Positions 8,645-27,047 of a stretch of DNA of 35,938 nucleotides are shown here, in pieces. Each line of letters begins with the position of its first letter. Position 1 is the stretch's first letter. The notes beneath the pieces are model-generated. The model was not told the origin of the DNA and made no database searches. It worked only from the letters and a program-made list of their open reading frames with translations. The translations under genes were made by a program, and so were the position numbers. Source of the DNA: an uncultured Bacteroidales bacterium (GTDB lineage Bacteria > Bacteroidota > Bacteroidia > Bacteroidales > Bacteroidaceae); contig CAMGOT010000005.1 in assembly GCA_946060685.1 (NCBI GenBank), positions 1 to 35,938 on the forward strand. The letters run 5' to 3'.

Positions 8645-10873
8645 TTAGTTGTTCTTCGGAGCAGGGAGATACCAGTTGGCAGGATTCTGCAGTTTGCTGA
8701 AGAGCGAACCTGTTGTGCCGACCTCTTCATACGGAGCAAGATTCAGACCACGACGGCTGATGAGCCATGCCAGCCATGTAGAACCGTCCAGACCGGCATT
8801 GTTGCGATGGCGTGCAATACGCATGAGGTCGTAATAGCGCGTTCCTTCGAAAGCAAGGTCGAGAGCCATCTCATCGGCGATGATGGTCTCCACAGCGGCA
8901 ATCTCAGCCTCTGAAGGACCATAGTATTCGTAGGGTTCGGTCTTTTCAACCAGGTAATAGTAGTACTTGGCACCGTTCACTTCCACCGTCTTTCTTACGG
9001 CTTCAGTCTCCGTACCCTCTACTTCACCGGCCTTGGCCTTTTCATCGGATATAGCCTGATTAGAGCGTGAGTACTCATCCTCGATACGCTGGAGCACCAT
9101 CTTCTCATAACTGTAGAGAGAGTCCATATCAGTCGAGTAGCCACAGCCTGCGGTGTGAATACCCATGTTCGGCTTAGCGGTGAAATCGGTGAAGTCGAGC
9201 CATGCAACGCCTTCGGCACGCTTGAGCTCATTGAGGTCGATGCAGTTGGCACCACCATAATTGTTCGAAGCACTGTCGGCCACCACCTTGTAGGTGAGGG
9301 TCACCTTGTCGTAGGGACGGAATTCCTCGGGGTCCACAGGTTCGTCCGTCTCACCGGGAGTTGCTGTAAATACGGTATCAGCCTTCACGACGAGGGAACC
9401 GATTGTGGGGAGTTTGTCTGGCTCCAGACCATCGCGGAGGATAGCAAAGGCATGGCGGGGGAATCCTGCACGGTTGACAGCCTCGGCATACTTCAGATAA
9501 ATCTGATTGAGCGTATAGACGGGGAGAAGATAGCGGAAAGCGAACATGCTGGTGGAGGTCACGTCGTCGCTATTGCCAGTGGTATAGCAGAACTTGTCGA
9601 CGAAACGGAGACGTCCGGCCTCGGTGCGCACAAGGGGAGCCGACTGGTTCAGACGGGCATCAGCATAGCCATCGGTCAGATACTCCACATCAATGTAGCG
9701 GGAATCGTCGAGCGGGTCGGGCACATTGTAGACGAGTTTCTGGGCGGCATTGAGCGCGAGATAACTGGGAGAGGGCTCCATCTGGCGACTCTTGTAGTTC
9801 GCCTTGACGTTTACTACACCCGAGGTGTTGACTTCCTCAGTGGCATTGCCGTCCTCGTCAGTGCCGGTAGAGGTTTCAGAACTTACGCCCGAAGAGGGAT
9901 CGAAGCCATACACCTGCGGTACACGCGTCAAGACCTTGCCGAAGAAGGCATTGGCGGCAGAAGGAACGGCAGTGACGATTTTTAAAGTACCGTTGTAGTC
10001 CGATCCCCAGCCATTGGAAAAAACCATATAACTGTCTTCATCGCCATGGGTGAACTTCACGACGGCGGCCTGATTGTCCACATAGGTCTTGCTATACTCA
10101 TCAAGATAATGATGGAAGTGATAGGCGGCCTTCTCATAGTCCGACTGGCTGGCGCCACGGAGGAGATAGAGATCGCCGAGGACAACATCGGCATTGAACG
10201 TCATGAGCTGGTGGCTATACGCGCCGGCACCGGAATTGAAGTCACCGTAGTTGATATAGCCGAGCGACTCTGCATAGTTGTAGGCCTGGGTAAGGCTCTG
10301 GCCTTCCACTCCTTCGAGAAGCTCAAGGAGATTGTCGGCATCGGCCCATCCTTCCGGCGGCGTGGTCTCCCATCCCGTTCCGGCATTCTCTACGGGCTTG
10401 GAGATGAAAGGCACCTTGCCGTAGTTCTGCACGAGCTGCATGTAGGTCCATGCACGAACGAGTGCCACCTGCGAGATTTCACGGCGCATGAAGTAGGAAT
10501 TGTTCTTCATGGCCATGGAGTCGGCAGCAGCCAGATAATAGTTGCACTGGTTGATGACCTTATAGTATGCCGCACGGTTGAGCAGCTGGTTCTCGCCATC
10601 TTCGAGGTTGGTGAAATTGGCGATGGATGAAATCGAGTCGGAGACATATTCCGTGGGGGAAAGGAGGTCGCCGCGGAGCTCACCGAGCAAGATGTTCTGC
10701 TCGACCATACCCTGCAGGTTGGAGAGGATACCGAGATAGAAGTTGATGGTGTCCGTACCGGAGAATCCTGTGGCGTAGCGGTCCATGTCAGGTGTCAGCA
10801 TATCCTCGCACGATGTGGTGACAGTGCCCAGACCGAGAATGGCGAAGCCAAGTGATAATATAGACTTTTTCAT
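8645..10873 (-). CDS. SusD/RagB-family outer-membrane lipoprotein (distal pair)
   Basis: Surface lipoprotein predicted to cap the SusC channel encoded just upstream and to bind its ligand. A lipoprotein signal peptide ends in VTTSC, so Cys22 would be lipidated; the following E-D fits surface export signals of Bacteroidetes lipoproteins. Tetratricopeptide-like helices characteristic of SusD are visible (for example the LVRAWTYMQLVQNYGKVPF segment), and the C-terminal signature DLAFEGTRYYDLMRIARHR is typical. At 742 residues it is longer than common SusD proteins (about 500-620); the surplus lies mainly in an insertion (roughly 500-660) with acidic and charged low-complexity parts. It starts 15 bp after the SusC stop and is followed by the terminator at 8541. 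Ligand unknown. Confidence 0.92.
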   Translation of the reverse strand: MKKSILSLGFAILGLGTVTTSCEDMLTPDMDRYATGFSGTDTINFYLGILSNLQGMVEQNILLGELRGDLLSPTEYVSDSISSIANFTNLEDGENQLLNRAAYYKVINQCNYYLAAADSMAMKNNSYFMRREISQVALVRAWTYMQLVQNYGKVPFISKPVENAGTGWETTPPEGWADADNLLELLEGVEGQSLTQAYNYAESLGYINYGDFNSGAGAYSHQLMTFNADVVLGDLYLLRGASQSDYEKAAYHFHHYLDEYSKTYVDNQAAVVKFTHGDEDSYMVFSNGWGSDYNGTLKIVTAVPSAANAFFGKVLTRVPQVYGFDPSSGVSSETSTGTDEDGNATEEVNTSGVVNVKANYKSRQMEPSPSYLALNAAQKLVYNVPDPLDDSRYIDVEYLTDGYADARLNQSAPLVRTEAGRLRFVDKFCYTTGNSDDVTSTSMFAFRYLLPVYTLNQIYLKYAEAVNRAGFPRHAFAILRDGLEPDKLPTIGSLVVKADTVFTATPGETDEPVDPEEFRPYDKVTLTYKVVADSASNNYGGANCIDLNELKRAEGVAWLDFTDFTAKPNMGIHTAGCGYSTDMDSLYSYEKMVLQRIEDEYSRSNQAISDEKAKAGEVEGTETEAVRKTVEVNGAKYYYYLVEKTEPYEYYGPSEAEIAAVETIIADEMALDLAFEGTRYYDLMRIARHRNNAGLDGSTWLAWLISRRGLNLAPYEEVGTTGSLFSKLQNPANWYLPAPKNN

Positions 10874-10888
10874 TTTTGCACAACGTGT

Positions 10889-13800
10889 TTAGAGGTTGAT
10901 GGTGATACCGAGGTTGAAGTTGCGGCCATTAGGCAGATAGCCTGCGTCGATGCCCTGATAGAGGACGGAATTGCTGCAGCTGACCTCGGGGTCCTGTCCG
11001 AGATACTTGGTGATGGTGGCAATGTTGTTGGCCTCGCCCCATACGGAAAGTCCCTGGAGCCAAGAGAGTGCAAGAGGCACCTTGTAGGTGAGGCGCACGC
11101 GCTTGAGCTTGAGGTAGGAGCCGTCCTCAATCCAGCGGTCGGAGAAACGCTCATTGTTCACCCACTGCTCAGAATCAGGACTCATGGTGCGGGGCATGTC
11201 CGTCTGCTGTCCCTCATACTTCCAGCGGTTCACGACAGCCGTGGTCTGGTTCCAGATATTGTTGGCCGACTCCAGCTGCATGCGCTGATAGTTGTAGATA
11301 TCATTGCCGAGGGAGTACTTGAACACTACGTCGAGCGAGAGGTTCTTCCAGGAAAGGGAGGTGTAGATATTACCGTAGACAGTGGGGTTGGGATCACCGA
11401 TGACCACCTTGTCGGCCTCGGAAATCCATCCGTCGCCATTCTGGTCGACGAAGCGTACATCGCCTGCCTGGAAGTCGCGGCTGGGCTGGCTGGAAAGTCC
11501 GGTGGGGTACTTCAACCCATCTTGCTTGGCCTGTTCGGTGGTGGCATAGACGCCATTGGTCTCATAGCCATAGAACACGCCTGCGGCATGGCCCACAGCA
11601 GTAAGGACATTGTCGGTACCGTAGACGCTGGAAGTATAGCCGACGATGGTGGTGGGGTCGCCCTGACGCTGTCCGTTGGCATCGAGGCGATAGGTCTCGA
11701 TGAGGTTGTTGCGGGTGTCAGGAAGCTTGGTAATCTCGTTCTTGTAGTGAGCGAGGGTGGCACCCAGTTGCCACTGCCAGTCCTTCTTGGAGATGAGGTG
11801 GGTATTGATGCTGAAGTTGACGCCGGAATTCTTCAACTCGCCATCGTTGCTCCACATCTGCGAGAGACCGGTGATGTCGCTCACGGTCTTGCGCACGAGG
11901 AGGTCGGTGGTGCGGGCGTTGAAGTATTCAATGCCGAGCGACAGGCGGTTGCGGAGCATATTGAGCTGCAGGGCAACATTGGCACGATGGGTGGTCTCCC
12001 ACTGAATCTTCGGGTTCTCAATGTTGGCAAGTTCAAGCGCTGTGGCCTTGTCGAGAAACTTCACGTTGTTGAAATACGTACGCGATGCGTAGTAGTCGAT
12101 ATTGTCGTTGCCGGACATCTCATAGCCTGCAGTGATCTGGAGGAGGTCGATCCACTTGGCATTGAACCAGGACTCATTGCTCATGACCCATCCTGCCTGG
12201 ATGCTGGGGAACATGCCCCAAGGCACACCTGCGGCCTTGATGCCTCCCTCAGCCTCCTTACCGAAGCGGCTGCTGGCCTCTGCCGAGATGATGAACTTGG
12301 CGAAGTAGCGGTGCTTGAAGTTATAGTCGGCATTGATATAATAGGAGAGGTTGGTCCAGCGGTCGTTGACACCACCATAGGAAAGGTACTGGAGAGAGTA
12401 GGAGAGGTTGGGCATCTTGTCGTTGGAGTTGTTGTAACCCCTGACATTAGAGCTGGTGTAGCTATAGTTGGCGATGCGGAATCCTCCGAAGAGGTCGATG
12501 TTGTGGGCACCGAAATTGCGGTTCCAGTCTACGCGGAAGTCATTGAAGAGCGTGGTCTCCTTGCCGAACTGCGAAGCGATGACGCTCTGCACGTTGCCCA
12601 GATTCTCCACCACCTTGCTCGGCGTACCGGATGCCGGCATGAAGTACTTCTCGTTGGAACGGTTGAGGAGGTAGCTGAAGCGGTCGGTGATGGTGACGTA
12701 CTTGCTCACCTTATAGCGCGGCTGGATATTGAGCGAGAACTGCGTCTGCTCCTGATAGTTCTTGTTGTCGCCCTGGCCGTTCTGAAGCACCCAGAAGGGA
12801 TTGGCCAGACCCTCATAGCCAAATGCGCTGGCAAAGAGGAAGGGATTGTTGGAGTCGGCATAGTTCATGCCTCCATACAACTTGTCCGTATGCTGGAGCT
12901 TGAGCTGGTTGTCGCCCATATACTCTACGTAATAGGTATAGGGGTCGATGAACGGTGCCTGGATGAGTCCGAGCACATTGGGCGAAGAGATGTTCTTCCG
13001 ACTGTAGGATTCTGCCCATCCGTTGTCGCGGAGGTTGTAGGCATTGCGTACATACCCCATATCGATGGAGGCAGTGAAGCCGCGCCACAGATTGACATCG
13101 GTGTTGAAGCGAATGTTCAGACGGTTGAAGTCGGTCTGCTTTGCCGTAGCATCGGACTTGGCATAGCCGAGGGAGAGGTTGTACATGGCCACGTCATCAC
13201 CACCCTGAACGCCTACGCGATAGTTCTGCGTGAAGCTGTTCTCGTAGAGGTCCTTCTGCCAGTCGGTCTCATTGTGGTACTGGTCATAGTAAAGGTACTT
13301 CTTGTCCTCGTTGAGGAAAGGAATGGTCATGTTGGAGCCAAGGTCGTTCTGCTGGGCGTACTTCGTCGTGCCGAGGAATTCGGCAAGATAGTTGCGGTAC
13401 TGCTCGGCATTCATGACATTGAGATTGGATGGCGCAAGCTCGTAGCCTCCCCACGCACGGATATTGATTCGGGTAGCCATGGAGTGACCGCGCTTGGTGG
13501 TGATGCGGATGACACCATTGGCACCTTCTGCACCATAGAGGGCCACACCATTGCGAAGCACCTCGACATTTTCAATGTCCTCAGGGTCGATGAGGTTGAA
13601 GACATTGTTGAAGAAACCGTCGTGGATGGTACCGCGGTCGAACTGCATATCCCAAATGACATCGTCGACAACGACGAGGGGCTGGGCATTGGTATTGAGC
13701 GAATTGATGCCATTGATCAGCATCATGGCACCCTGTGCAGGCACACCGCCTCGGCTGACGGTACGTACGGCAGCATTGAGCTGGTTGTCCAGTTCGCCTT

Positions 13801-14299: not shown

Positions 14300-14308
14300 A
14301 GTATTTGA

Positions 14309-16219
14309 TTATTCGGCGGCGCGATAAGGCTCGCAGGAAATTTCTACAATGTTGAGAGGTGCATAAACGATTTTGTTACGGCCACCGCCCTTGGGAACGG
14401 TGAGGCGCAGACGCGGGAAGGTCTCACCCGTGGGGCAGGGAACATCAACGTAGCACTTGTCAAAATGGAACTTGGGGAAGAGCGTCAGCGTGGTCACGCC
14501 AGTCATGGGATCAATGATGATGGCATTGTCCTTGTTGCTGTCGGAAGCCTCGCCGTTCTTCTTGTAGGCATAGGTTGTGGAAGCACAGGACTTATTGTCA
14601 TCGTCGATAATCTCTGCCACGAAGCAAAGGTTCTCGTAGAAGCCTTCCTGCTCATCCTCATGCACATCGTCGAAGTTGATGTTGCTGGGCACGAGGGTCA
14701 CCTTGATGACATAATCGGCACTGTAGACATCCATCAGACGGAAGTCCACCTGCATGGCCTGGGAATTGTTGGCGATGGCGAAACGCTGGTAGGTGTTGTT
14801 GAGCACCTCACCGCTGACACCCGTCTTCTCACCCGTGGGGTTGCCGTCTTCGTCAACCACATCGCGCTCCTTATTGTAGTTGGTGGTTGAGAGCACCACG
14901 GTATTTCCGGTGGGAGCGGTACAGCCGGAGGAGTAGACCGTGTAGAAAGAACTTACGGGCTGGAACCATAAGTCGCTCACGAAGGAATAGGCAGGGTCGA
15001 ACTTATAGTCGGGAAGCTTGAACACATAGCCATTGGAGGCATCTTCCACATACTCGGCACGGAGTGCAGGATTCAGGTTCTGGTTGGGCTGGCCTTCCTT
15101 GGCAGCGGGGTTGTAGAAAATGACACCCGTGCTGGAGATGAGGGAGTCGGCCGTCTCCATATACTCTACAATCTTGCGGTTCTTCTTGCTCTCAAGTCCC
15201 ATGCGGTAGGGCTGGAAGAACATGTTCTTGATGATGGCTTCCTTGGCCTTTGCCTCGCAGAGCGAGTCGGCATTGAGCTTGAGTGCGCTTCCGCGATCTG
15301 AGGTATAGGTAAAGCCTGTACCGTCCCAGCCATAACTGTAGGTGCCGGCATAGTTCATGATGGACTTCACCTTCGCCAGTGCCTCTTCCCAGGCATTGTT
15401 GTCGGGAATGACAGCCACGTAGCAGGAGTCCTCGTCGTCGAGACTGATTCCGATACCGTCGAGGAGGAGGTTGGTGCGGGTAAATATCGAGTCGATATAC
15501 ACCATATCACCGTTCTCGTTCATGGCACCGGGCACGGAAAGATTCTCATTGAAGGTCTCCGTCTCGATGGCAGGATCCTTGATATAGGCATTCACCGAAG
15601 AGATGGCAGGGTCGGCCGAGAGGAAATCATAGATATTGTAGGCAAAGGGATTCAGTCCTTTAAGGGTATAGAGCACACCATTGCTGCCGTGAATCTGCGT
15701 GCCTTCCATCGGAATCTCATTGAAGGTTCCGGGCACACTCTGCACATTCTTTCCGTTAAGGAGATGAATGGTCTGTTCGGAAGCCAGATTGGAATTGAAG
15801 CGTGCAATATGGTTCATGGCGAACTGGTTGGACGCGATGTACATGAGCTGGCGTCCCTCGCGCTCCGTAGCCTCATCGGCCCTAAGCAAGTTGGCCTTGT
15901 TGATGGTGTCGCTCCAGGCCTTATAGTCAAAAGAGCCGTTGACAGGTGCCACAACGGTGAAGCTCTGGTTGGAAGCGAGCAACTCACTGTATTTCAAAGT
16001 GGCAGTCTTGTCATTCTCGCTCTTCATCACGGTGATGCGAGTGAGAAGATCCTGAAATTCTGAAAGGTTCTTGTTCGCCTGGATGTTTTCCCACAGCGTC
16101 TTGTCAGCATCGCCCTGGGTCACGACATCAAAATGGTCGTCAGAACATGCTGTGGCAAGCGCAAGAGCAGAAACGGCAAAAGCGCATCCCTTGAACAGTT
16201 TGTTAATAGGATATTTCAT
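14309..16219 (-). CDS. Fasciclin (FAS1)-domain lipoprotein, 636 aa
   Basis: Predicted surface lipoprotein. The signal peptide ends in LATAC (Cys25 lipidated) and is followed by S-D-D, similar to known Bacteroides surface-export signals. The first FAS1-like domain spans about 45-205, with the H1-type strand motif FTVVAPVNGSFD and the closing strand GVLYTLKGLNPFAYN. A second, degenerate FAS1-like domain spans about 205-360 (CYVAVIPDNNAWEEAL). The C-terminal half (about 400-636) looks like beta-rich domains with several cysteines and no family I can name. No enzymatic motif is visible. It stands first in the distal three-gene set, 9 bp before SusC, and 252 bp after the previous fasciclin gene. 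Probable roles are ligand capture or complex assembly beside SusC/D (inference). Confidence 0.8.
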   Translation of the reverse strand: MKYPINKLFKGCAFAVSALALATACSDDHFDVVTQGDADKTLWENIQANKNLSEFQDLLTRITVMKSENDKTATLKYSELLASNQSFTVVAPVNGSFDYKAWSDTINKANLLRADEATEREGRQLMYIASNQFAMNHIARFNSNLASEQTIHLLNGKNVQSVPGTFNEIPMEGTQIHGSNGVLYTLKGLNPFAYNIYDFLSADPAISSVNAYIKDPAIETETFNENLSVPGAMNENGDMVYIDSIFTRTNLLLDGIGISLDDEDSCYVAVIPDNNAWEEALAKVKSIMNYAGTYSYGWDGTGFTYTSDRGSALKLNADSLCEAKAKEAIIKNMFFQPYRMGLESKKNRKIVEYMETADSLISSTGVIFYNPAAKEGQPNQNLNPALRAEYVEDASNGYVFKLPDYKFDPAYSFVSDLWFQPVSSFYTVYSSGCTAPTGNTVVLSTTNYNKERDVVDEDGNPTGEKTGVSGEVLNNTYQRFAIANNSQAMQVDFRLMDVYSADYVIKVTLVPSNINFDDVHEDEQEGFYENLCFVAEIIDDDNKSCASTTYAYKKNGEASDSNKDNAIIIDPMTGVTTLTLFPKFHFDKCYVDVPCPTGETFPRLRLTVPKGGGRNKIVYAPLNIVEISCEPYRAAE

Positions 16220-16387
16220 AATATTTTGATTCGGGAAATAGAATGTATTTCGTTTTGTTTTTCCACGTCAGTGAGTCGTCCTGGCAAGCAGACCCCATGA
16301 GATGAGCATCGTGAGATTTTCCATCATGAGCCGCAGAAATCCTGCCATTCAGACTTTGTGACCTTGTATCACTGCCTCCATCCCGCT

Positions 16388-16434
16388 CCCCTGCCCTTCC
16401 GCCATTTCCAGGAGAAACGGCAGTGAGGGAGGGG
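16388..16434. other. Stem-loop between the two halves of the SusC/D cluster
   Basis: GCCATTTC (16401-16408) pairs with GAAACGGC (16414-16421) around a five-base loop with one G-U type pair. Outer pyrimidine-rich (CCCCTGCCCTTCC) and purine-rich (AGTGAGGGAGGGG) arms extend the stem. On the minus strand no T-run follows, so it is not a standard terminator. It may be an attenuator, a processing site or an RNA-stabilising hairpin separating upstream and downstream genes; no promoter matching TAnnTTTG was seen in this gap. Confidence 0.45.
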
Positions 16435-16471
16435 CAAGAAGGACAGGCAAGCAGCATACCTTGACTTGGAA

Positions 16472-18571
16472 TTACCAAATGTCCTCAGGCTCTATGCCAT
16501 TGTAGACGGAGCGGGGACAGAACTCGAAATAGTCAGAGAAGAACTGCGAAGCGTTGTCCTCTAGACAGGACTTGAAACGCATGTAGTAGGTTTTCTCGGG
16601 TTTCAGTGTCACTGTGGTGACAATCAGACGAACGTGTCCGGAGTAGTCACGGGCAGTGGTAGCGGCGTCGCCATTGGAGATACAGAAAATCTTCGGACCC
16701 TTCATGTAACCCTGGTTACGCATGTTCTTGTCTTTTTCCTGAATAGAAGCCTCATCGAGATTGCCGTCGTTGAACCATCCTACGTTGTCGTCGGTCGTGG
16801 ACATACGCATATCGAAGGGAAGTCCTACAGGCAGGAGGCTCTTGGGATCCTCACCGAAGTAAATCTGGCACATACCGCGGAGGCTGTTGAGCGAGCATCC
16901 CATACGGATTTCATAAAGGCCTTCCTTCGGCACGGGAGGAAGTTTGAGCACGAAGTCGTAGATACCGAGTACCATGAACTCATCGCCCTCAAGGTCGCAC
17001 CATCCGTAAGCACCTTGGGAAGCGGTGGTCAGATAGAGGAGCTTGGTGTCGTCGGAGCAGCCGGTGATGTTGTCGAAATAGCTGTTGCTGTCGAAGTACT
17101 GATAGCTCTGGCTGCGGCAACCGTTGTTGAGCAACTCGGGCAGGATGGTGGTGATGTCGAAGCGGATACGCTCACCGCCAAGGGCATCCTGGGCAGTCTT
17201 GTCGAGGATGAGCATGCCGTCGATGGGATAGTAGTAGCCATTCTTGGCATTGTTCACATTGAGTTCCTCGTCAGACCCTGCCTTGGGGTTGGTGGCAGCA
17301 ATCTTCACACCGCGATGGGTGACACCCGTCTGCTCATAGCTTCCTGCAACATCGTAGGTGCAGACACGGTTGGCATAGAGATCCTTGGTGGTGGCTTCGT
17401 GGGTAATCTTGACGAGACCGCGACGCTTGCCGACGGTGACAAAATAGTCGGTAAGGTCGACGGTGAGGTTCTCCTGCTGTGGATTGAGGATATCGCCCCA
17501 CTTGTAGCCATACTCGCAGAAGTGGTTGACGAACTTGTTGTGGGCCATCTTGCCTTCCAGGAAATGGTAAGCCACGAAACGGTTGACGGCATTGTCCTCG
17601 TTGGTCAAGTCGCCCTGTGCCTCTGTGCCATAAGCAGCCTCGGCGATAGGACGGAGCGCATTGATGATGGCATCGAGATTAGAGCAGGTACCTTCCTCGG
17701 CATTGTAGCCCTCAGGAGCGGGAATGCCATAGCGTGCAAAGACATCATCGGTCTCCACAAGAGCAGTGTAGCCGAGATAGCGGTGCTGTGCTACGGGGAA
17801 GGTGGCGAGGTTAGGAAGTTTTACGCTCACTTCATGCTCGGCATTCTCATAGTCGAGGTCGATATAAGCGGTCAGTTTGGCATCCCATCCCGTAGCGGCC
17901 AGGAGCACACCCATGACATTCATATTGTCGGCCATCTTGATGAGGTCGGGCACCATCTCATTGGAGGGAGCAATGACATTGTCGACCACATGGAGATAAC
18001 CATTGGAGAGCTCAATGTCGAACTTTACCACACGCGAGGTGCCGGAAAGGAGGTAGTAGGTTTCCTGAGTCTCCTCGTCAACCTTTTCTTCACAAGTGAT
18101 GGTACGGTCGTTAAGATCACTCTTGGAGAATGCAGCATTCGACTGCGGGAACTCAGGACTCTCATAAGCCGACTCGTCGCCGTTGTCGATGATGCAGGAA
18201 TAGGCGATAAGCTCAGCCTGCTCATCGTCGAGCTGGTCGACAGAGGTCAGGCCCAGCTTCTTGAGATACGCGTTGACGGCATCGTTGTTGGGTGCAAACA
18301 CGGTATAGTTTCCACGTGCAGAGAGCACAGCGGAGAGTGAGGATGCTCCTGCCTTGCGACCGAGAGGAACACGGTCGAGGATGGCCTTGAAGAGCGAGAA
18401 CTCGGAGGTCTCTGCCAGAAAATCAGAAATGGTCTGCTTCTCGGCAATGGCGTAGTCACTCTCGCTCAAGTCCTCTTTACAGCTCTGGAAGGTGAAGAGC
18501 ACACTGGAAGTCATGCCCGCCAAAAGAAGCAAGGAAGCGAGCGACTTGATTTTGATACAAATACTTTTCAT
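16472..18571 (-). CDS. Fasciclin (FAS1)-domain lipoprotein, 699 aa
   Basis: Predicted surface lipoprotein with signal peptide ending FTFQSC (Cys31), followed by K-E-D, which fits the K-(D/E)2 surface-export pattern described in Bacteroidetes. The first FAS1 domain (about 45-205) is clear, with YTVFAPNNDAVNAYL (89-103) and the closing GYLHVVDNVIAPSN (191-204). A second diverged FAS1-like domain follows (about 205-410; YTALVETDDVFARYG, then RFVAYHFLEGKM). The C-terminal part (about 500-699) is a beta-rich region containing GLYEIRMG, PVGLPFDMRM and RLIVTTVTLKPEKTYYMRFKS, which resembles a carbohydrate-binding-module-like sandwich, but I cannot assign it to a family. It begins 15 bp after the proximal SusD gene. 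Role: probable accessory binding subunit. Confidence 0.82.
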   Translation of the reverse strand: MKSICIKIKSLASLLLLAGMTSSVLFTFQSCKEDLSESDYAIAEKQTISDFLAETSEFSLFKAILDRVPLGRKAGASSLSAVLSARGNYTVFAPNNDAVNAYLKKLGLTSVDQLDDEQAELIAYSCIIDNGDESAYESPEFPQSNAAFSKSDLNDRTITCEEKVDEETQETYYLLSGTSRVVKFDIELSNGYLHVVDNVIAPSNEMVPDLIKMADNMNVMGVLLAATGWDAKLTAYIDLDYENAEHEVSVKLPNLATFPVAQHRYLGYTALVETDDVFARYGIPAPEGYNAEEGTCSNLDAIINALRPIAEAAYGTEAQGDLTNEDNAVNRFVAYHFLEGKMAHNKFVNHFCEYGYKWGDILNPQQENLTVDLTDYFVTVGKRRGLVKITHEATTKDLYANRVCTYDVAGSYEQTGVTHRGVKIAATNPKAGSDEELNVNNAKNGYYYPIDGMLILDKTAQDALGGERIRFDITTILPELLNNGCRSQSYQYFDSNSYFDNITGCSDDTKLLYLTTASQGAYGWCDLEGDEFMVLGIYDFVLKLPPVPKEGLYEIRMGCSLNSLRGMCQIYFGEDPKSLLPVGLPFDMRMSTTDDNVGWFNDGNLDEASIQEKDKNMRNQGYMKGPKIFCISNGDAATTARDYSGHVRLIVTTVTLKPEKTYYMRFKSCLEDNASQFFSDYFEFCPRSVYNGIEPEDIW

Positions 18572-18586
18572 TGCTGTATATGGGAT

Positions 18587-20431
18587 TTAGTCTTGCATGT
18601 ATTTCTGCCAAACAGGGTTCTGGACGAGTTTACCGTTGCCATCGCCATATCCGACACCGTTAACTTTCATTTCATCCGAATAGATGGGGTTGTAGAGGGA
18701 CCAGATGTTGCGGCAACGGTTCTTCACGCTGCTGGAGGCAGCCATCCATTCGAGCACTTCTTCGGTTTCATTGCGCCACTCGCACTCACGCACGAGGTCG
18801 AACCAACGCTTGCCTTCTGCAATGAACTCGCGCTGACGCTCGAAGTAGGTGAGACGCAGGAGGGAGTCGGTGGAGTTTTCGCTTCGCGATGAAGCCCAAC
18901 CCTTGGCGAGACGTGCACAATAGGTGACAGCATCGGAGTTGATGGAGTCGGCTCCAGGATTGTTGCGTGCGAAGAGGTTGTTGATGAGGTGGAAGCCCAT
19001 CGAACGGCTGGCAGTACCATCCTTGGAGAGCAGACGGGCAATGGCCTCGCTCTTGATGAGCATGATGTCGCTCAAACGGTAAATGGGGCAAGAGGCACTG
19101 CTGGCAGTATTGCTGCGATAATTGCTGTAGTCCGCACCCTTTCTCATATCGTAGGCATCAACAAGATAGACTGTCGTAGCCACATTCTTGATGATAGGAT
19201 ACACGCTCTGTCCCTCCTTCTCATACTGTGCGGTAGAGAAAGCACGGAAGTCGGTGAGTCCGAAACCACGGGTAAAGCCCAAATCGGGATCGGGATCCGT
19301 CATGCGGCTGAAGAGGATGGGGGTGGCGGTCATGATGCGGGGCGCAAAAGCATTGTCCTCATTGCCATAGAACATGGTACCATAAGTGGAATTGGACACA
19401 TTCACACCATCGTACTGAAGTTCGAAAACGCTCTCAGAGCTATTGCCGGTACCAAAATTAAGCAAATACGGTGCATCGAGGGTAGTACCGAACTTGGAAG
19501 CCGTATTGGTAATCAGCGGGAAAGGCTGCTTGCGACGCGGGTCGTTCTCCGTGACATTCTGGAGGTCGAGATTACGATCGTACTCGCTCTTGAGATGGTT
19601 CAGCACGAAATCACAATTCTCAATACACTTCTCCAAACTGCTGGTGATGACCTCGGCAGGATTTTCGGTCGGAGTATAGGCATTGCCCGCAGCATCCTTC
19701 TTGCCATCGATGTTGTTGTAGAGACAGGCACGCCAAAGGTACATGTCGGCAAGGAGGGCAGAGATGGAATAGGTGGTGAATCGACCAGTGGAGGTGACCC
19801 CAGCACCGAAATTCTTTGCGGCATACTTCTGGGCAGCCTCCACATCAGCTATACAGCTCTCCAGGATTTCAAATCCGGGGGTAGCGGCAATACGGCTGGC
19901 CTTTGCCTCAGTGTCGGTGCTGACGGACTTGGTGACATAGGGCACATCGCGATATGCACGCACGAGATAGAAATAATAGAGCGCACGGAGGCTGACCATC
20001 TCGGCCTTGATGGGGAGCCAGTCGCCTTCAGTGAAGGAAGGGTCTACTTGCTCATCTATCATGCGCTGTCCGTTTTCAAGCACCTCATTGCAATAGTTGA
20101 TGCCCTTGTAGAAGCCGCTCCAGTCGAACATACCCTCGGTAGGCTGGAGCACAGCTTCCTGGAGACGCAGGTAAGCGGTCTTGTCCATCTTGTTCAAGGT
20201 GACATTGTCAGAACGGAACTCACCCCAAATGAGGATTTTATCCTCCAACTGCGTCATCTGGTAATAAGCGGCAGCACGCACGTTGTCCACGTCGCTGCGG
20301 GTATTCCAGTAATCCTCCTTTGTAATGGAGTTGGTCGGTGTGATGGTGAGATAGTCCTCGCAAGAGGCCAGTCCGCCCAACGCCACAACCGCAGCTCCGA
20401 GAAGGAATTTATTGATATTATTCTTTTTCAT
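18587..20431 (-). CDS. SusD/RagB-family outer-membrane lipoprotein (proximal pair)
   Basis: Ligand-binding lid of the SusC transporter encoded 31 bp upstream. The ATG at 20431 gives 614 residues and a good lipoprotein signal peptide, MKKNNINKFLL...LASC with Cys24, followed by E-D; a TTG further upstream (20446) would add five residues with no benefit. Canonical SusD features are present: the N-terminal ITPTNSITKEDYWNTRSDVDNVRAAAYY segment (in parts), TPR-like helices such as SLRALYYFYLVRAYRDVPYV, and the C-terminal ERQREFIAEGKRWFDLVRE signature. Length is normal for the family. It ends 15 bp before the 699-residue fasciclin lipoprotein gene. Ligand unknown. Confidence 0.95.
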   Translation of the reverse strand: MKKNNINKFLLGAAVVALGGLASCEDYLTITPTNSITKEDYWNTRSDVDNVRAAAYYQMTQLEDKILIWGEFRSDNVTLNKMDKTAYLRLQEAVLQPTEGMFDWSGFYKGINYCNEVLENGQRMIDEQVDPSFTEGDWLPIKAEMVSLRALYYFYLVRAYRDVPYVTKSVSTDTEAKASRIAATPGFEILESCIADVEAAQKYAAKNFGAGVTSTGRFTTYSISALLADMYLWRACLYNNIDGKKDAAGNAYTPTENPAEVITSSLEKCIENCDFVLNHLKSEYDRNLDLQNVTENDPRRKQPFPLITNTASKFGTTLDAPYLLNFGTGNSSESVFELQYDGVNVSNSTYGTMFYGNEDNAFAPRIMTATPILFSRMTDPDPDLGFTRGFGLTDFRAFSTAQYEKEGQSVYPIIKNVATTVYLVDAYDMRKGADYSNYRSNTASSASCPIYRLSDIMLIKSEAIARLLSKDGTASRSMGFHLINNLFARNNPGADSINSDAVTYCARLAKGWASSRSENSTDSLLRLTYFERQREFIAEGKRWFDLVRECEWRNETEEVLEWMAASSSVKNRCRNIWSLYNPIYSDEMKVNGVGYGDGNGKLVQNPVWQKYMQD

Positions 20432-20462
20432 GATAATAAATGCCAAATGATGAATGCCTTTA

Positions 20463-23400
20463 TTAGAATCCGAAGTTCAGACTAAACGTGAAACTCTTCG
20501 AGCGGGGAGTCGTAGAATTGTCGATACAGGGGCTGTAGCCGCTCTGCGTGTGCTCAGGGTCAACGCCGGAGTACTTCGTGAAGCAGAAGAGGTTGTTGCC
20601 GGACGCGCTGATACGGAGAGTCGAGAGGCGCACCTTCTTGAGCTTCTTGGGATCAACGGAGTAGCCGAGCTGGAAGTACTGGAAACGAAGGAAATCGCCG
20701 GGCTCTACATAGCGGTCGCTGATGAGCGCATTGTAGGACTCCTTAATAGCAGCGTTCTTGGCACGGGGAATTTCGGTGATGTCGCCATTCTTGCGCCAGC
20801 GCCATGCTACAGAAGCCATCTGGTTCTCGTTGGTACGCATATCCTCGGCATACATCTTTGCCATGTTGAGGATCTTGTTGCCGATACGGAAGTTGAAGTT
20901 GGTCTTGAGGGTCCAGCGGCCAAGGGTGAAGTCGATTCCGAAACCACCGTTCACCTTCGGGTTGGAAGTGCCGAGGTAGCAGATATCAAGTTCGTTGATC
21001 TGACCGTCATGGTTGATATCTTCATAGCAAACGTCGCCACCATCGAAAGCATAGTTTGTTCCACCATAGTTGAACATCATGCGTACGGGATTGCCGGACT
21101 TGTCGTAGATGACATTGCCCTGTGCATCGCGTGCCACGGGAGCGGCATTCTCAGCAGTGAGGCGGGCATCGTGCTCGCGACCCAGTGCAGCAGCAGCGGT
21201 GTTCTGCTCTCCAGATGCAGTGAAGTACTGGTTCTTCTCATCGTTGGAGAAATAGCCGTTGTGGTCGTAGTCGTAGGCATATACACCCTTATAGCGGAAA
21301 CCATAGATGGCACCGAGGCTGTGACCTACTTCTACCCGGCTCATCACACTCTCGTTCTTGTTGCTGAAGTCGGGATTCATGGACTCGAGCACGTTGGCAT
21401 CCATCTCGGTAAGGGTGTTGATGTTCTGGGCGACATTGGCACGGAGGACAACACTGAACTTGCCATACTTGAGGATAGGCTTGGTGCTGACGTAGAGTTC
21501 CCAACCCTCGTTCTCCATCTTACCGACATTGCTGAAGCTCAGAGCAGAGAAACCTGAACTGGAGGGAACGCGTACACCTTTCATAAGAAGGTCGCTGGTG
21601 TACTTGTGATAGACGTTGAGGTCGAACTGGATAAGGTCGTTGAAGAGGTTCAGGTTTGCACCGATGTTCCAGGAGCGGGTCTTCTCCCACTGAATCTCGG
21701 TGAGGCGGAGGTTCTCGGGAGCGATACCGGCGACACCGTCGTAGTAACCATAGCTGCTATATTTATTATAGATGAGTCCCTCGTCAAACCATGCGTTACC
21801 GTTGATACCCCATCCCGGACGAACAGCCAGCATGCTGACCACTGAACGGAGAGGCTCGAAGAACTTTTCGTCGGAGATGTTCCAACGACCGGAAATACCG
21901 GGGAATACACCCCACTTGCTTCCGGCACCGAACTTGGTCATACCGTCGGCGCGGACAGTGGCATCAATGCTGTACTTGGAGCCGAAACTATAGTGGAACG
22001 AACCGGTAGCACTGGCAGAGTGTCCCTTCCAGGTGCTGGTGGAGGCTGCACGGAGATAGCCGGGAACGGTGGGGTCGGTGATACCGCCGTTGATACCGGA
22101 ACTGTTGAGACTCTGGGTGGTACCGTTGGAGCTGCTGACCTCGAAACGTCCCAGCACCTGCAACGAATGGTTCTCATTCTCGAAATGAGGAACATAAACC
22201 AAGCTGTGGCGGGTGGTGAAGGCAAAGGTCTTGTTCTGATAGTCGGCCGTATAGTCCACACCGTCCGACCAGGCCTTGGAGGTGAGCTGGTGGGGATAGT
22301 AGGAGTTGTCGCCCTGCGTGAAGGCATTCATATATACCTCACCCGTATAGTTCAACTGATGCTCATCGTCCTCCTTACCGAGCAGTTTGTACTCAATAGA
22401 GAACTGCGGGGTAATGGTGTAGGTGGAGGTGCGATAGTATGCCAGATTGGCAATGGCAACGGGGTTACAGTTGCCCACGCGGTCAGAGAGATAATAAGAG
22501 GAGAGGTTGGAATTGTTGGCAACGAGTCCGGGACCTGTAGCGGCAGGAGGCATGATGTAGTAGTCGCCAGTGTTGTTGTACATACCGGTATTCTGGTCGT
22601 ACTCCCAGCGATATACGCTCATGTTAGGCATAGCCTTATAGGCATAGGAGAGGAGGTAGTTGTCGTAGTTCTTGTTGTTCTTGGTGTAGACCAACGAGAA
22701 GTTGGAACTGAACTTGATGCGGTCGCTCACGTAGTAGTCGAGAGCCAGACGCGTAGAGAAGCGGTCGAGGCTCTGCTTGATGATGGTACCGGTCTCGTGG
22801 TCATAGTTACCACTGATACGGAAGGATGCCTTCTCACCACCACCGGAGAGGTTCACACCATAGTTGTGGGTCTGTCCGAACTGTGTGACTTCGTCAATCC
22901 AGTCGGTATTCTTGTTGTAGTTGGCATAGTATGCAGGATGATCCTGGAGGTACATCAACTCGACGATACCGGAAGCCACATCGCTCTGGTTGGGGTTGAA
23001 GTAAGCCTCCTTCAGCATCATGGAGTAGCCGTCGCCATCGAGCATCTTCATACCTTCGGGCTGCCATGCTCCGCTGAAGCGATAGCTGAAGTTGACTTTC
23101 GTAGGACCACGCTTACCACGACGGGTGGTGATTTCAATCACACCGTTAGAACCGCGGGCACCCCAGATAGCGGTAGCAGCGGCATCCTTCAATACGCGGA
23201 TGTTCTGGATGTCCTCAGGGTTGACCTGGAGAAGGGTGGCAAACTGCTCCTCGTTCTCCATATTGTTGAGGTCGAGGTCATCGGAAGAGTAGTCCTCAAG
23301 GATATATCCGTCGACGACGATAAGGGGCTCGCAGTCACCATTGATGGAGCTGACACCACGCAGACGCATTGAAGTACCGGAACCCAGGTTACCGGAGTTG

Positions 23401-23891
23401 GCCACGATGTCAAGACCAGCAATCTGTCCCTGAAGAGCATCGCCGGCCGTCTCAAAGGAAAGACCCTCAAGGTTGTCCATGTTGAGCGTCTGGGTAGCGG
23501 TGGAGATTTCTCGCTCAGGAATGGCGAGACCATTGTTCTTCACCTTACGGGTGACAACGACCTTTGCCTCGGAAAGGGCGGTCTTGTCGATCATTTCAAT
23601 CTTGAAGGTAGTCTGCGTACCGATGGGATTGATGACCTTGGTGGTGTATCCGATATAGGATACCTGGAGTTTGTTGGCGGTGTTCTTGATGGTCATCGAG
23701 AAGTTACCGCTGACATCCGTCTGCGTAGCGCTGACGATACGGTTTGACTTGTCGATTTCGACCACGTTAGCCATTATCACGGGGCCGTCGGTTTTGCTCC
23801 ATACGTGTCCCGAGATACGCTTTGACTGTGCGAAAGCCACGCTGGCACAGATGAAAAGCGCGAGGGTGAGGATATATTTTATATTCTTCAT
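20463..23891 (-). CDS. SusC/RagA-family TonB-dependent outer-membrane transporter (proximal pair)
   Basis: Beta-barrel importer of 1142 residues energised by TonB-ExbBD. A signal peptide (1-21, cleavage after VAFA) is followed by a carboxypeptidase-regulatory-like domain (about 22-105), the plug (about 115-260) with the canonical VLKDAAATAIWGARGSNG and ITTRRG motifs, and the barrel ending in an aromatic residue (SLNFGF), as needed for outer-membrane assembly. No STN domain. It begins 9 bp after the four-domain fasciclin lipoprotein gene. Compared with the distal SusC it has a standard plug and shorter N-terminal linker, and the two are clearly diverged, so they are not a recent tandem duplication. 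Substrate unknown. Confidence 0.95.
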   Translation of the reverse strand: MKNIKYILTLALFICASVAFAQSKRISGHVWSKTDGPVIMANVVEIDKSNRIVSATQTDVSGNFSMTIKNTANKLQVSYIGYTTKVINPIGTQTTFKIEMIDKTALSEAKVVVTRKVKNNGLAIPEREISTATQTLNMDNLEGLSFETAGDALQGQIAGLDIVANSGNLGSGTSMRLRGVSSINGDCEPLIVVDGYILEDYSSDDLDLNNMENEEQFATLLQVNPEDIQNIRVLKDAAATAIWGARGSNGVIEITTRRGKRGPTKVNFSYRFSGAWQPEGMKMLDGDGYSMMLKEAYFNPNQSDVASGIVELMYLQDHPAYYANYNKNTDWIDEVTQFGQTHNYGVNLSGGGEKASFRISGNYDHETGTIIKQSLDRFSTRLALDYYVSDRIKFSSNFSLVYTKNNKNYDNYLLSYAYKAMPNMSVYRWEYDQNTGMYNNTGDYYIMPPAATGPGLVANNSNLSSYYLSDRVGNCNPVAIANLAYYRTSTYTITPQFSIEYKLLGKEDDEHQLNYTGEVYMNAFTQGDNSYYPHQLTSKAWSDGVDYTADYQNKTFAFTTRHSLVYVPHFENENHSLQVLGRFEVSSSNGTTQSLNSSGINGGITDPTVPGYLRAASTSTWKGHSASATGSFHYSFGSKYSIDATVRADGMTKFGAGSKWGVFPGISGRWNISDEKFFEPLRSVVSMLAVRPGWGINGNAWFDEGLIYNKYSSYGYYDGVAGIAPENLRLTEIQWEKTRSWNIGANLNLFNDLIQFDLNVYHKYTSDLLMKGVRVPSSSGFSALSFSNVGKMENEGWELYVSTKPILKYGKFSVVLRANVAQNINTLTEMDANVLESMNPDFSNKNESVMSRVEVGHSLGAIYGFRYKGVYAYDYDHNGYFSNDEKNQYFTASGEQNTAAAALGREHDARLTAENAAPVARDAQGNVIYDKSGNPVRMMFNYGGTNYAFDGGDVCYEDINHDGQINELDICYLGTSNPKVNGGFGIDFTLGRWTLKTNFNFRIGNKILNMAKMYAEDMRTNENQMASVAWRWRKNGDITEIPRAKNAAIKESYNALISDRYVEPGDFLRFQYFQLGYSVDPKKLKKVRLSTLRISASGNNLFCFTKYSGVDPEHTQSGYSPCIDNSTTPRSKSFTFSLNFGF

Positions 23892-23900
23892 GGCATGCTG

Positions 23901-26900
23901 TTATTTCTGTGTTCCATACTTGGCGAGGAAAGCTTTGGCTTTCTTGTTGGATTGCCATGCAGCGTCCCATCTGTCAGTGCCCAGGGGCTTGAAATGGAGG
24001 GCCTTGTCAATCTGATGAACCACCACGTAGGAGCTGCTCTGGATGAGACGCGGATTGGTGGTAGTATTGTAATGGGAGTCGCGTGCGATGAGATTCTGCT
24101 GTGCAGCGGAAACTTTCACATCCTGCTTGTCGGCATCCTTGATGACGAGACTGTTGGGGGTCTGCTTCACATTGAGGTTCAGATAGTTTCCGTCGTAGAT
24201 GCAGGCTGTCATATACTGGCCTTCGTCAGAGAGATTGTCGACGAATACCGACTCGTCCTGGAAGTGATACTTCAGGAAGTTGACGAGCGTATTGATCATG
24301 GCCTGTGCCTTTTCTTTCACAGCAGCATCCTTTTTGAGGTTGTCCTCGTAGGTCTTGTACTCGGGAGTGTCCTTCCAATCCTTAAGAGCCTGCTCATACT
24401 GCTTCACCTGCTCCTCGTAGTCCTCGGCCTCGGTGTTCGTGGGCATCTTGGGCTTGCCCTCGGGCTCCGTGGGACGAATAAGGTTCTCGTCGAGATACTC
24501 CTGGATTTCATCCCATGTGGGGAGACCACGGTCAATCTCAGCCTGAACAGCATCGTCAGAGGGAACATAAACCGTATAGCGGTAGTTGTTGAAACTACGT
24601 ACCAGCTTGTCGCCGGAGGGGATGTTGTAGTTTGCACCACCCTTCTCACCCTGAAGGAAGATGTAGAAGAGTGCTGCTGCACGCTGCCACTTGGTCTCGG
24701 CATCGCTGCTGCCCGACTCGGCATACGGATCATAGAATCCGGCATCTTTCAGCACGTCGTCGTTCACACCTTCGCAAAGCTCCATAAACTTGGAGGAGGA
24801 AGGCATGCCGGTGGTCACCTTATAGACGCTGTTGGTGGTGGGCTGCATCGGACGATCGAGGAAATAGGTCATACCGTTACCGTAACCATTGGTCTGCTGG
24901 CTCTGGTCGTACACTTCTGTCACCACACAGTTGAAGGCGGCAGCGGAACCCTGCTTCTGCAGTTGCTCCTGGAAACCACCCTTCACCTTCATACCGACAC
25001 CATTGCCCTCGCCTGCCGTCTCGACGATGACGGGAGCACCGGTACGGCTAAGGTAGTACTTCTTGCCGGAACGAACGTCGTTGCCCGACTCATGGACCAC
25101 GATGTGCTGGTTGACCATCTCGATAAGGAGCTTCTTCTTCACTTCACCATAGGTGGAGGTCAAGAGGTCGTTGTAGAGCGAACGGTAGTCGTTACCACGA
25201 GCCTTGTCGGTGGGGTCGTAGCCCTTATCAATATTATAGGTATAAGCCACGGCATTGATAGGCAGACGCTTTCCGCTTGAAGCCACATTGCCAGTGGTGT
25301 AGACATAACGCCAGTACATATAGTTTCTCGCGTTACCGGCAGCAAGGCTGGCAGGGTCAACATAACCGTAGGTACCCAGACCGTCGTCGGTGGGAACGAA
25401 GAAACTGAAATTGCTCTGCATGGCCTTGAGGTAGGTGGAGAAGTAGGTCTGCAACGGTGCGTTGGCATACTGGCTTCCCTGGATGTAGGCCTCATCGGCA
25501 CGTACCACAGCACGCATCACCTGAGCGTTCTGGCTATAGAGTACGGGGGCGATGACAGAAGAATAGTCGGCAGGAGCGACAACCTTGTTCATCACGTAGA
25601 CCACTCCATTGTTGGAGAGCATCACGGTGTCAATGGCAGCCTTATATTCAGCAACGGTGGTATATCCGTCGCTGGTGGGGAACATCTGGTCGCGAGCGTC
25701 GTTCATAATGGCGAGGTACTTGGAAGGTACGGTCTCATTGAACGAATTCTTCATCAAGTTGTTCACCAGCGCCTGGATAATATCAAGGGGCACCTGGTCA
25801 AGGTTGTAGAGCAGATTGTCCTCAGTGACGGGAACCTGCGTAGCATAACGCTCCATGAGCACGCGTCCGCCACCATTGAGGAAATAGGTCTTGAGTGCGG
25901 CATCGCTGGGTACGAACATGGCACCCATATTTTTCTCCGCGCTCTCAGAGTCGGTACTCATGAACTGGCTCCATGCGGGGTCGAAACTCAGGTAGGGATA
26001 GCCCGCCTTGACATTCGAGCCGTTGGGGTCGGTGGTAAGTTGTCCGGAAGTGGTGCGTACAGCGAAATAGCGCTTCACGAACACACTGTCGACATCGTTG
26101 GAATAAAGCGACTTGTAATTGTAGGTAAGGTCGCCATCATAGAACGGTGCGCTGAAACGGTCGAGGATATGACTGAAAATCTGTGTCGCAGGATTCTTGC
26201 GGATTTCCTCAGCCATATTGCTGGGGGCCACAAGTACTTTGTCGATCTCATGGAAATAACCATTCGTGCAGACCACATCCTGTCCGTCAGGAAGGATTTT
26301 CGATCCGAATACGTAAGAACGGTTCTCTGAATCAGAATCAAGCCAGTCGTTCTGTTTGCCGTTCAGTCCAAGGATGAAGCTGACATCCTCATGGGTGATG
26401 CTCTTCTCCTTCATCTGTCCTTCGAGGAAGTGGACAATCATGGGAGTGGTGGCATCAACGGCCATGTAGATTCCTGCTCTATCGGAAGACTCGGAAACGA
26501 AACGGTTCCAGAAATTGGGATAGTCAGAAGTCTCGCTCTGGATGTTCGGCAATTCAGCCTTTCCCCACCATTTCACGCTGTCGGTGACACTGGCAGCACT
26601 GGTCTGACGAAGACAGAGGTTCTTCTCGCCGTTGGCACAGTTCGACATCATTTCCAGTACGTAGGCATTATTGAGCATGGCATTGTTAAGCAGGAGTTTC
26701 TTCTGCGCCATGCTCAAGTCGTCATACTTTCGTACTGCTGTTCCCGCTGATGTGGTCCAGTTGGTAGTCTTGAAGAAATCCTCGTAGGCAGCATCGTTGG
26801 CCACAAAGAGGGTCTTACTACCAGTCTTCGCCAACACGTCAGCGTAATCGAGGTCTTCGATGAGCCGCAGCGTATATTGGAAATTGCCGCGTGCTTTCAG

Positions 26901-27047
26901 TTCGTCGTAGATGCTCTCTCCAAGGAAACTCGGCTTCGAAGTGTCGAGGTCGTAATCATCCGAACAGGAGAACATCAAGCCGCCAGCCGAAAGCAAAAGG
27001 CAGAGACCGACTGCGGTCTGACTCATGTTTGAAAAACGGTTTTTCAT
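23901..27047 (-). CDS. Large lipoprotein with four fasciclin (FAS1)-like domains
   Basis: First gene of the cluster; 1048 residues. The signal peptide ends LMFSC (Cys28), followed by S-D-D, which predicts surface exposure. I see four FAS1-like units by their paired motifs: about 45-275 (TLFVANDAAYEDFF; closing NGYFHEIDKVLVAPSN), 285-495 (GAMFVPSDAALKTYF; NNGVVYVMNKVVAPAD), 505-740 (SFFVPTDDGLGTYG; the closing part is diverged) and 745-1020 (YTVYVPSDDAVQAEI; SSYVVVHQIDKALHF). The last unit is interrupted by a highly charged, helix-prone insertion (about 855-915, rich in E, K, Y, P). No catalytic motif. FAS1 domains are known as adhesion and ligand-binding modules; its lead position, 9 bp from SusC, suggests a structural or capture role in the SusC/D complex (inference). 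Confidence 0.85.
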   Translation of the reverse strand: MKNRFSNMSQTAVGLCLLLSAGGLMFSCSDDYDLDTSKPSFLGESIYDELKARGNFQYTLRLIEDLDYADVLAKTGSKTLFVANDAAYEDFFKTTNWTTSAGTAVRKYDDLSMAQKKLLLNNAMLNNAYVLEMMSNCANGEKNLCLRQTSAASVTDSVKWWGKAELPNIQSETSDYPNFWNRFVSESSDRAGIYMAVDATTPMIVHFLEGQMKEKSITHEDVSFILGLNGKQNDWLDSDSENRSYVFGSKILPDGQDVVCTNGYFHEIDKVLVAPSNMAEEIRKNPATQIFSHILDRFSAPFYDGDLTYNYKSLYSNDVDSVFVKRYFAVRTTSGQLTTDPNGSNVKAGYPYLSFDPAWSQFMSTDSESAEKNMGAMFVPSDAALKTYFLNGGGRVLMERYATQVPVTEDNLLYNLDQVPLDIIQALVNNLMKNSFNETVPSKYLAIMNDARDQMFPTSDGYTTVAEYKAAIDTVMLSNNGVVYVMNKVVAPADYSSVIAPVLYSQNAQVMRAVVRADEAYIQGSQYANAPLQTYFSTYLKAMQSNFSFFVPTDDGLGTYGYVDPASLAAGNARNYMYWRYVYTTGNVASSGKRLPINAVAYTYNIDKGYDPTDKARGNDYRSLYNDLLTSTYGEVKKKLLIEMVNQHIVVHESGNDVRSGKKYYLSRTGAPVIVETAGEGNGVGMKVKGGFQEQLQKQGSAAAFNCVVTEVYDQSQQTNGYGNGMTYFLDRPMQPTTNSVYKVTTGMPSSSKFMELCEGVNDDVLKDAGFYDPYAESGSSDAETKWQRAAALFYIFLQGEKGGANYNIPSGDKLVRSFNNYRYTVYVPSDDAVQAEIDRGLPTWDEIQEYLDENLIRPTEPEGKPKMPTNTEAEDYEEQVKQYEQALKDWKDTPEYKTYEDNLKKDAAVKEKAQAMINTLVNFLKYHFQDESVFVDNLSDEGQYMTACIYDGNYLNLNVKQTPNSLVIKDADKQDVKVSAAQQNLIARDSHYNTTTNPRLIQSSSYVVVHQIDKALHFKPLGTDRWDAAWQSNKKAKAFLAKYGTQK

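Follow-up and report, generated by a model that had tools for sequence, protein, structure and literature searches.

A conserved seven-gene cassette with two SusC/SusD pairs and three FAS1 lipoproteins from an uncultured Bacteroidales bacterium

Introduction

What does a bacterium import with two SusC/SusD (SusCD) pairs and three fasciclin-type (FAS1) lipoproteins when no degradative enzyme is encoded among them? And do the two halves of such an array work as one system or as two? These questions are raised by a locus of an uncultured Bacteroidales bacterium of the family Bacteroidaceae (GenBank assembly GCA_946060685.1). The stretch analyzed here (35,938 nucleotides, hereafter the window) is contig C5 (CAMGOT010000005.1) of a 2.44-Mb genome that is 82% complete and consists of 225 contigs. 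SusCD systems determine which glycans gut Bacteroidota take up. We find that the two halves form one operon-like conserved cassette and not two systems. It is probable that this cassette is a double SusCD importer with FAS1 proteins as capture lipoproteins, and that the copy in the window's genus most likely imports pre-digested oligosaccharides.

Results

Gene order in relatives

The open reading frames (ORFs), together with Pfam and NCBIfam matches, confirm seven genes on the minus strand from 27047 to 8645, in the order F1-C1-D1-F2-F3-C2-D2 and with no enzyme interposed (Table 1; F, FAS1 lipoprotein; C, SusC; D, SusD). The array is as the initial annotation had described it. The same order is found in relatives, whose loci are labeled L (and genomes G) below. 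We compared 73 loci: 55 hold the full seven genes, F2 alone is missing from 12 and tripled in one, and five are cut by contig ends. They come from three sets. The 20 best F3 loci comprise 15 in the full order and five without F2. Another 33 loci from named records, drawn from the best 80 of 596 candidate stretches, were chosen by C1 identity (42-72%) and not by family; 25 are full, although among these D2 is often beyond the flank limit and one has a split C2, three lack F2 and five are cut at contig ends. The last 20 are weaker F3 loci picked down the match list, with 15 full, four without F2 and one with triplicate F2, whose F1 lies outside the fetched stretch. No deviating gene order was seen among the 73 loci, and neither half stands alone wherever the contig reaches. 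The number of distinct loci is slightly below 73, as L082 and L216 lie on the same contig and L061 and L219 are nearly identical in C1. By contrast, among 47 more distant SusC loci, neighbors matching the F profiles occur only in L083 and L086.

In the family, 29 of the 30 best-matching FAS1 loci sit directly after a D1-like SusD; the remaining one (L189) has no SusD in the ~1.2 kb of DNA upstream. D2 follows C2 in every family locus read that far. Pairwise divergence is correlated across the parts of the cassette (C1-C2, r = 0.96; F1-C1, 0.94; lowest value, 0.74). None of 500 permutations gave correlations as high, and shared genome descent contributes to them. Synteny and co-divergence thus agree with the earlier proposal that the FAS1 proteins are fixed SusCD partners. 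The constant order in 73 loci and its recurrence in other families show that the halves are not separate systems. Two related systems working side by side had been suggested; instead, the halves travel together, and the sole promoter match of the cassette region precedes F1.

Two loci deserve separate mention. Three F2 genes stand in tandem within one cassette in L219 (8551-14862). In L058, C2 is broken into two ORFs, possibly by a frameshift or an assembly error.

F3 matches were found in 90 of 151 sampled family genomes and FAS1 matches in 103. The most F3 matches in one genome (seven, with 23 FAS1 matches) are in G087, where the cassette has probably undergone a large expansion. In a sample of the phylum, 127 of 296 genomes match the F2 profile, mostly in the FAS1 part alone. 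We read nine of the ten best such matches from outside the family; the tenth, in G257, had no SusD neighbor. Seven loci in six genomes show the full seven-gene order, each pieced together from a pair of overlapping stretches, and the other two loci hold six genes in the form FAS1-SusC-SusD-FAS1-SusC-SusD. The latter is also present in Sphingobacterium phlebotomi and Parapedobacter composti (L083, L086).

The encoded proteins

F1, F2 and F3 are all FAS1-like proteins. F1 and F2 score above the cut-off of PF02469, and F3 is without any Pfam hit. Profile comparison links F1 with F2 (E 3.1e-15), F3 with F2 (E 4.8e-13) and F3 with solved chains of TGFBIp (E 7.5e-10). F1 has profile matches to periostin, and F2 to TGFBIp and periostin with E values as low as 1e-27; the C-terminal part of F2 beyond the FAS1 match is conserved (alignment A4). 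The model of F3 has a mean pLDDT (predicted local distance difference test) of 75, with values under 50 in part of the C-terminal region. Structure comparison with VIA-align places two FAS1-like domains at residues ~33-407 and a C-terminal beta-sandwich, similar to carbohydrate-binding modules, at ~413-635. The model also matches the structures of TGFBIp and periostin.

The five lipoproteins of the window begin with a cysteine followed within three positions by acidic residues (F1 reads ...SCSDD). Acidic residues shortly after the lipoprotein cysteine are a rule for surface export, and the five are consistent with it. Relatives have an acidic residue near the presumed cysteine in 25 of 70 F1, 53 of 86 D1, 48 of 76 F2, 49 of 62 F3 and 39 of 68 D2 proteins, counts that are weak evidence because the crude pattern often chose the wrong cysteine, above all in F1.

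C1 and C2 both exceed the cut-off of TIGR04056 (368.25) and belong to the SusC/RagA family. The SusC signature TIGR04057 is above its cut-off in C1 and below it in C2. Solved relatives of C1 are SusC homologues, the best match being 8aa4. D1 is above the cut-offs of both SusD_RagB and SusD-like_3 (Pfam SusD, 54.7 bits). Its score of 51.8 bits against NanU (NF033072; cut-off 425) does not place it with the sialic acid importer NanOU. D2 is a weak SusD, at 25.6 bits against a cut-off of 23.1. A polysaccharide utilization locus (PUL) has at least one SusC/SusD pair, and the window has two (C1/D1 and C2/D2). In a sequence search among the window's proteins, C1 and C2 were the sole detectable pair (187 bits); D1 and D2 did not detect each other, nor did F1, F2 and F3. 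The view that the halves are related and diverged is right for C1 and C2 and, by sequence search, extends to no other pair.

Enzymes beside the cassette in relatives

Eight of nine more distant family genomes (G131, G044, G029, G143, G113, G033, G087, G137 and G022) carry carbohydrate-active genes no more than ~16 kb from the cassette. The initial annotation took linked hydrolases at the edges of homologous loci as a sign of an ordinary PUL, and such genes are present here. The count of eight comes from a flank search with 23 seed proteins, mostly enzymes, picked by eye from these flanks and from those of the named loci. Pfam tallies covered 66 of the 116 flank ORFs of these nine genomes, and ten genes were checked singly. 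Consecutive genes of glycoside hydrolase (GH) families GH10, GH43 and GH67 lie ahead of the cassette in G022; GH30 and a hybrid two-component regulator lie behind it in G033. These enzyme sets mark the two loci as xylan PULs. A rhamnogalacturonan lyase of polysaccharide lyase (PL) family PL11 is found beside the cassettes L055 and L080, and others have GH28, an alpha-galactosidase, an arabinofuranosidase and a glycosidase core family. The upstream flanks of the named loci (51 of 94 ORFs scanned) include GH95 and GH106, and a GH2-like gene lies ~2.5 kb from the cassette of G010 (L046). A PUL-type regulator is present beside some relatives' cassettes (L146).

Other families show similar neighbors: two GH28 genes with GH2, GH115 and GH88 in G157; GH88, PL22 and GH106 on contig 13 of G401; a pectate-lyase-like gene without Pfam hit on contig 9 of G401; and a SASA/GDSL esterase in G300. 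The cassettes of G401 and G183 adjoin a gene for rhamnulose-phosphate aldolase-dehydrogenase (above cut-off) and genes resembling L-rhamnose isomerase and a kinase (below cut-offs). RhaT beside the cassette is above cut-off in G401 and was judged by eye only in G183. The six-gene loci have BNR/sialidase-type proteins nearby, a GntR regulator at L083 and a sulfatase at L086. Genes resembling N-acetylneuraminate lyase and epimerase also occur there (below cut-offs in G417, by eye in G152). This form (L083, L086, L252-L255) is a candidate sialoglycan importer. Judged from these flanks, the cassette in relatives appears to be the capture-and-import core of PULs, with linked enzymes that vary by clade, because carbohydrate-active genes (GH10, GH67 and GH30 for xylan; GH28, PL11, PL22 and GH106, along with L-rhamnose genes, for pectin/rhamnogalacturonan) flank many homologous cassettes.

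The genus of the window

The ORFs scanned in the window include no linked carbohydrate-active enzyme, and its Pfam hits include no hybrid two-component system and no extracytoplasmic function (ECF) sigma/anti-sigma pair. In both respects the window's copy departs from a PUL. The cassette, followed through F3, is kept in eight of nine genus genomes; G043 is without a match. In seven same-genus relatives we scanned 69 of the 109 flank ORFs of at least 250 aa. At E 1e-50 these gave 14 families, with one GH77 as the only glycosidase. At E 1e-5 the best 25 of 98 families comprise housekeeping families, among them those of lpx, miaA and penicillin-binding proteins, and Peptidase_S9 with related alpha/beta-hydrolase families. 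Same-genus flank ORFs of at least 150 aa gave no match to the 23 seeds, a search that a weakly matching enzyme could escape. A ligand needing no local enzyme, as first proposed, therefore agrees with the scanned flanks of the window's own genus and not with those of relatives, which carry linked carbohydrate-active genes.

A genus-wide search covered GH10, PL11, RhaA, GH28, GH43, BNR_2 and GH13. The amylase-type GH13 is found in all nine genomes. BNR_2, considered with a possible sialoglycan role of the cassette in mind, is found in eight, mostly as weak matches, with a strong one in the window's genome (contig C72, 237.5 bits). Among the matches listed, the cassette accounts for two of the three, four, five and six SusC matches above cut-off in G099, G128, G082 and G064, respectively. 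A C1 tree (FastTree), many of whose enzyme labels rest on flanks read in part, places the genus among clades of which several have glycan enzymes; its sister group includes L071, with GH2. This placement suggests that the lack of linked enzymes is a derived state.

Promoter, gap and flanks

The motif TTTG-N17-23-TAnnTTTG, which we take to be the Bacteroidetes-type promoter, is matched exactly at four sites of the window (expected number, 0.24). The site before F1 is the only one in the cassette region. The gap between F2 and F3 contains neither a terminator-like site nor a promoter-motif match. It is the longest of 57 loci, for which the median is 33 bp. Its RNA fold has a z score of -2.76, and one of 200 shuffles was equally stable. 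The hairpin is possibly an RNA processing or expression-tuning element for the second half. We infer that the seven genes are on one transcript.

Table 1. Features of the cassette and its surroundings in the window.
Feature	Position	Strand	Description
Candidate promoter	27290..27320	(-)	Bacteroidetes-type TTTG-N17-23-TAnnTTTG (presumed), 243 bp upstream of F1
F1	23901..27047	(-)	Large FAS1 lipoprotein, 1048 aa, first gene of the cassette; Pfam Fasciclin 42.6 bits
C1	20463..23891	(-)	SusC-type TonB-dependent transporter, 1142 aa; TIGR04056 638.6 bits
D1	18587..20446	(-)	SusD-type lid lipoprotein, 619 aa; likely ATG start at 20431
F2	16472..18571	(-)	FAS1 lipoprotein, 699 aa; Pfam Fasciclin 49.1 bits
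F2-F3 gap	16220..16471	(-)	252 bp, stable hairpin, no T-run
F3	14309..16219	(-)	Lipoprotein, 636 aa; two FAS1-like domains and C-terminal beta-sandwich (model)
C2	10889..14299	(-)	Second SusC-type transporter, 1136 aa; TIGR04056 567.3 bits
D2	8645..10873	(-)	Diverged SusD-type lipoprotein, 742 aa; SusD_RagB 25.6 bits

The cassette is surrounded by housekeeping genes, with cutC and dihydroorotate dehydrogenase upstream and lpxD, lpxC, lpxA, miaA and a penicillin-binding protein downstream. An Rfam scan of the window gave no known RNA element up to E 0.5, and the window holds no tRNA. The lpxC of the window (5148-6128, minus strand) is a stand-alone gene of 326 aa, alignable only to the LpxC part of the relatives' gene, which has 461 aa and ends in a FabA/FabZ-type domain.

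Discussion

We propose roles for the parts by analogy with utilisomes, in which SusCD and surface lipoproteins form a stable complex. F1-F3 would sit on the cell surface and catch the ligand, in place of the surface glycan-binding proteins (SGBPs) of ordinary PULs. Their FAS1 domains may be a stalk or docking part, and the end of the F3 model that resembles carbohydrate-binding modules is the candidate glycan-binding part. Two different SusD lids, D1 and D2, would shut over two different SusC barrels, C1 and C2, probably in a joint complex with the FAS1 proteins. The barrels would draw the ligand into the periplasm using TonB energy. In other genera the module would form the importing core of loci for glycans such as xylan, pectin/rhamnogalacturonan and others. 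In the window's genus it is retained apparently without linked enzymes, and the ligand would again be a glycan, most likely in the form of pre-digested oligosaccharides. A wider claim is tentative: the cassette may be a class-wide, so far undescribed double SusCD importer with FAS1 proteins as obligate capture subunits, uncoupled from enzymes in a gut genus that has few of the usual fiber-degrading ones, retained there among a small number of SusC systems and serving a community-supplied or non-glycan ligand.

Several points weigh against import of glycans by such a joint system. One of the nine distant family genomes (G044) showed no linked enzyme, nor did two of the seven other-family cassettes (G171 and G352, judged by eye). 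Across the nine genus genomes GH10, PL11 and RhaA are absent, GH28 is found in one (the window's own, a weak match of 32 bits) and GH43 in two. Given this near-absence of marker enzymes, the window's copy lacks support for a role in the use of pectin or xylan, which was considered and set aside. Peptidase_S9 and related alpha/beta-hydrolase families are present in three of the 69 scanned same-genus flank ORFs. The initial annotation held that the idea of a joint system would fail if FAS1 genes were only rarely next to SusC/D. In the family they are linked at 29 of 30 loci; outside it, eight of 19 small FAS1 loci have a neighboring SusD and 11 do not, mostly short FAS1 ORFs of ~330 aa. FAS1 domains are familiar as modules for adhesion or for small ligands. 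Confidence is low in places in the C-terminal part of the F3 model, and the beta-sandwich there can likewise be aligned with domains of laminin and of insecticidal Cry proteins, so the fold by itself shows no function.

The most serious alternative, which we nevertheless regard as less likely, is that the genus copy has been repurposed for a ligand (a peptide, a glycoprotein fragment or a cofactor, for example) that requires no enzymatic carbohydrate degradation. The glycan links of relatives would then not be transferable. RagAB is a SusCD-like importer of peptides that works without glycosidases. The scanned same-genus flanks hold one GH77 and otherwise no linked carbohydrate-active gene, marker enzymes other than amylase-type GH13 are few genome-wide, and Peptidase_S9 occurs in the flanks (3 of 69 ORFs). 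The cassette is nevertheless kept in eight of nine members and makes up two of the three to six listed SusC genes in four of them, which fits repurposing. However, the informative linked genes of relatives indicate glycans, F3 has its carbohydrate-binding-module-like end, and import of pre-digested oligosaccharides accounts for the same facts.

It is improbable that the FAS1 proteins are adhesins for plant fibers or host matrix, with an incidental link to the importer. TGFBIp and periostin, to whose domains F1-F3 are related, are adhesion proteins. The three FAS1 proteins are, however, interleaved in fixed order with two SusCD pairs and diverge together with them, and 29 of the 30 best FAS1 loci lie directly after SusD. 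Two uptake systems that are independent and have separate FAS1 proteins are more improbable still and were rejected: the 252-bp gap parts the halves in the window and C1 and C2 have diverged, but none of the 73 loci shows a lone half where the contig reaches, the gap is an extreme among 57 loci (median 33 bp) and has no promoter match, and C1 and C2 diverge in step (r = 0.96).

If our reading of a double SusCD importer with FAS1 capture subunits is true, this widespread module would represent a new family of surface capture proteins. It would help to predict substrates from the enzymes linked to it, and it would allow a test of the reason for having two non-identical SusCD pairs in some importers. 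With its apparent lack of enzymes, the copy studied here is well suited to the question of whether scavenging of oligosaccharides is a way of life among gut bacteria.

Comparison with known systems

We found no description of a unit of FAS1 proteins and double SusCD in the open-access literature, a search that left most subscription papers outside. The parts of PMC10199937 and PMC4891872 considered here do not describe such a unit. The legend of a PUL map in the latter, for a cellulose/hemicellulose-like PUL of Gramella portivictoriae, names a FAS1 domain protein and SusD; in the part considered this is a label only, and neither a double SusCD cassette nor a FAS1 function is described. Cytophaga chu_1276-1280 was dropped as a comparison, the word fasciclin being absent from the part of PMC12016534 considered.

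The cassette resembles RagAB-type importers (solved RagA chains 6sli and others) in its SusC/SusD-like pairs. To our knowledge RagAB is a single pair and has no FAS1 subunits, unlike the window's cassette. The tandem xylan PUL of Segatella copri and Prevotella bryantii goes by the name XusABCDE. From the part of PMC11784079 considered, it has tandem SusC/SusD genes; two consecutive SusCD pairs are shared with the FAS1 cassettes, some of which also lie by GH10. That paper does not turn up among those that mention fasciclin together with SusC and SusD, and the window's genome, unlike the xylan PUL, is without a GH10 match. In the levan and dextran utilisomes, as the part of PMC7618045 considered describes them, SusCD is in a stable complex with surface lipoproteins. 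The likeness lies in a SusC barrel, a SusD lid and extra surface lipoproteins that are encoded together; in contrast to the utilisomes, the window's cassette has two non-identical SusCD pairs, three FAS1 lipoproteins and no surface hydrolase. On its gene content, the window's copy lacks the linked enzymes and regulators of a PUL, and the cassette appears to be a variant of the PUL import core, built alike.

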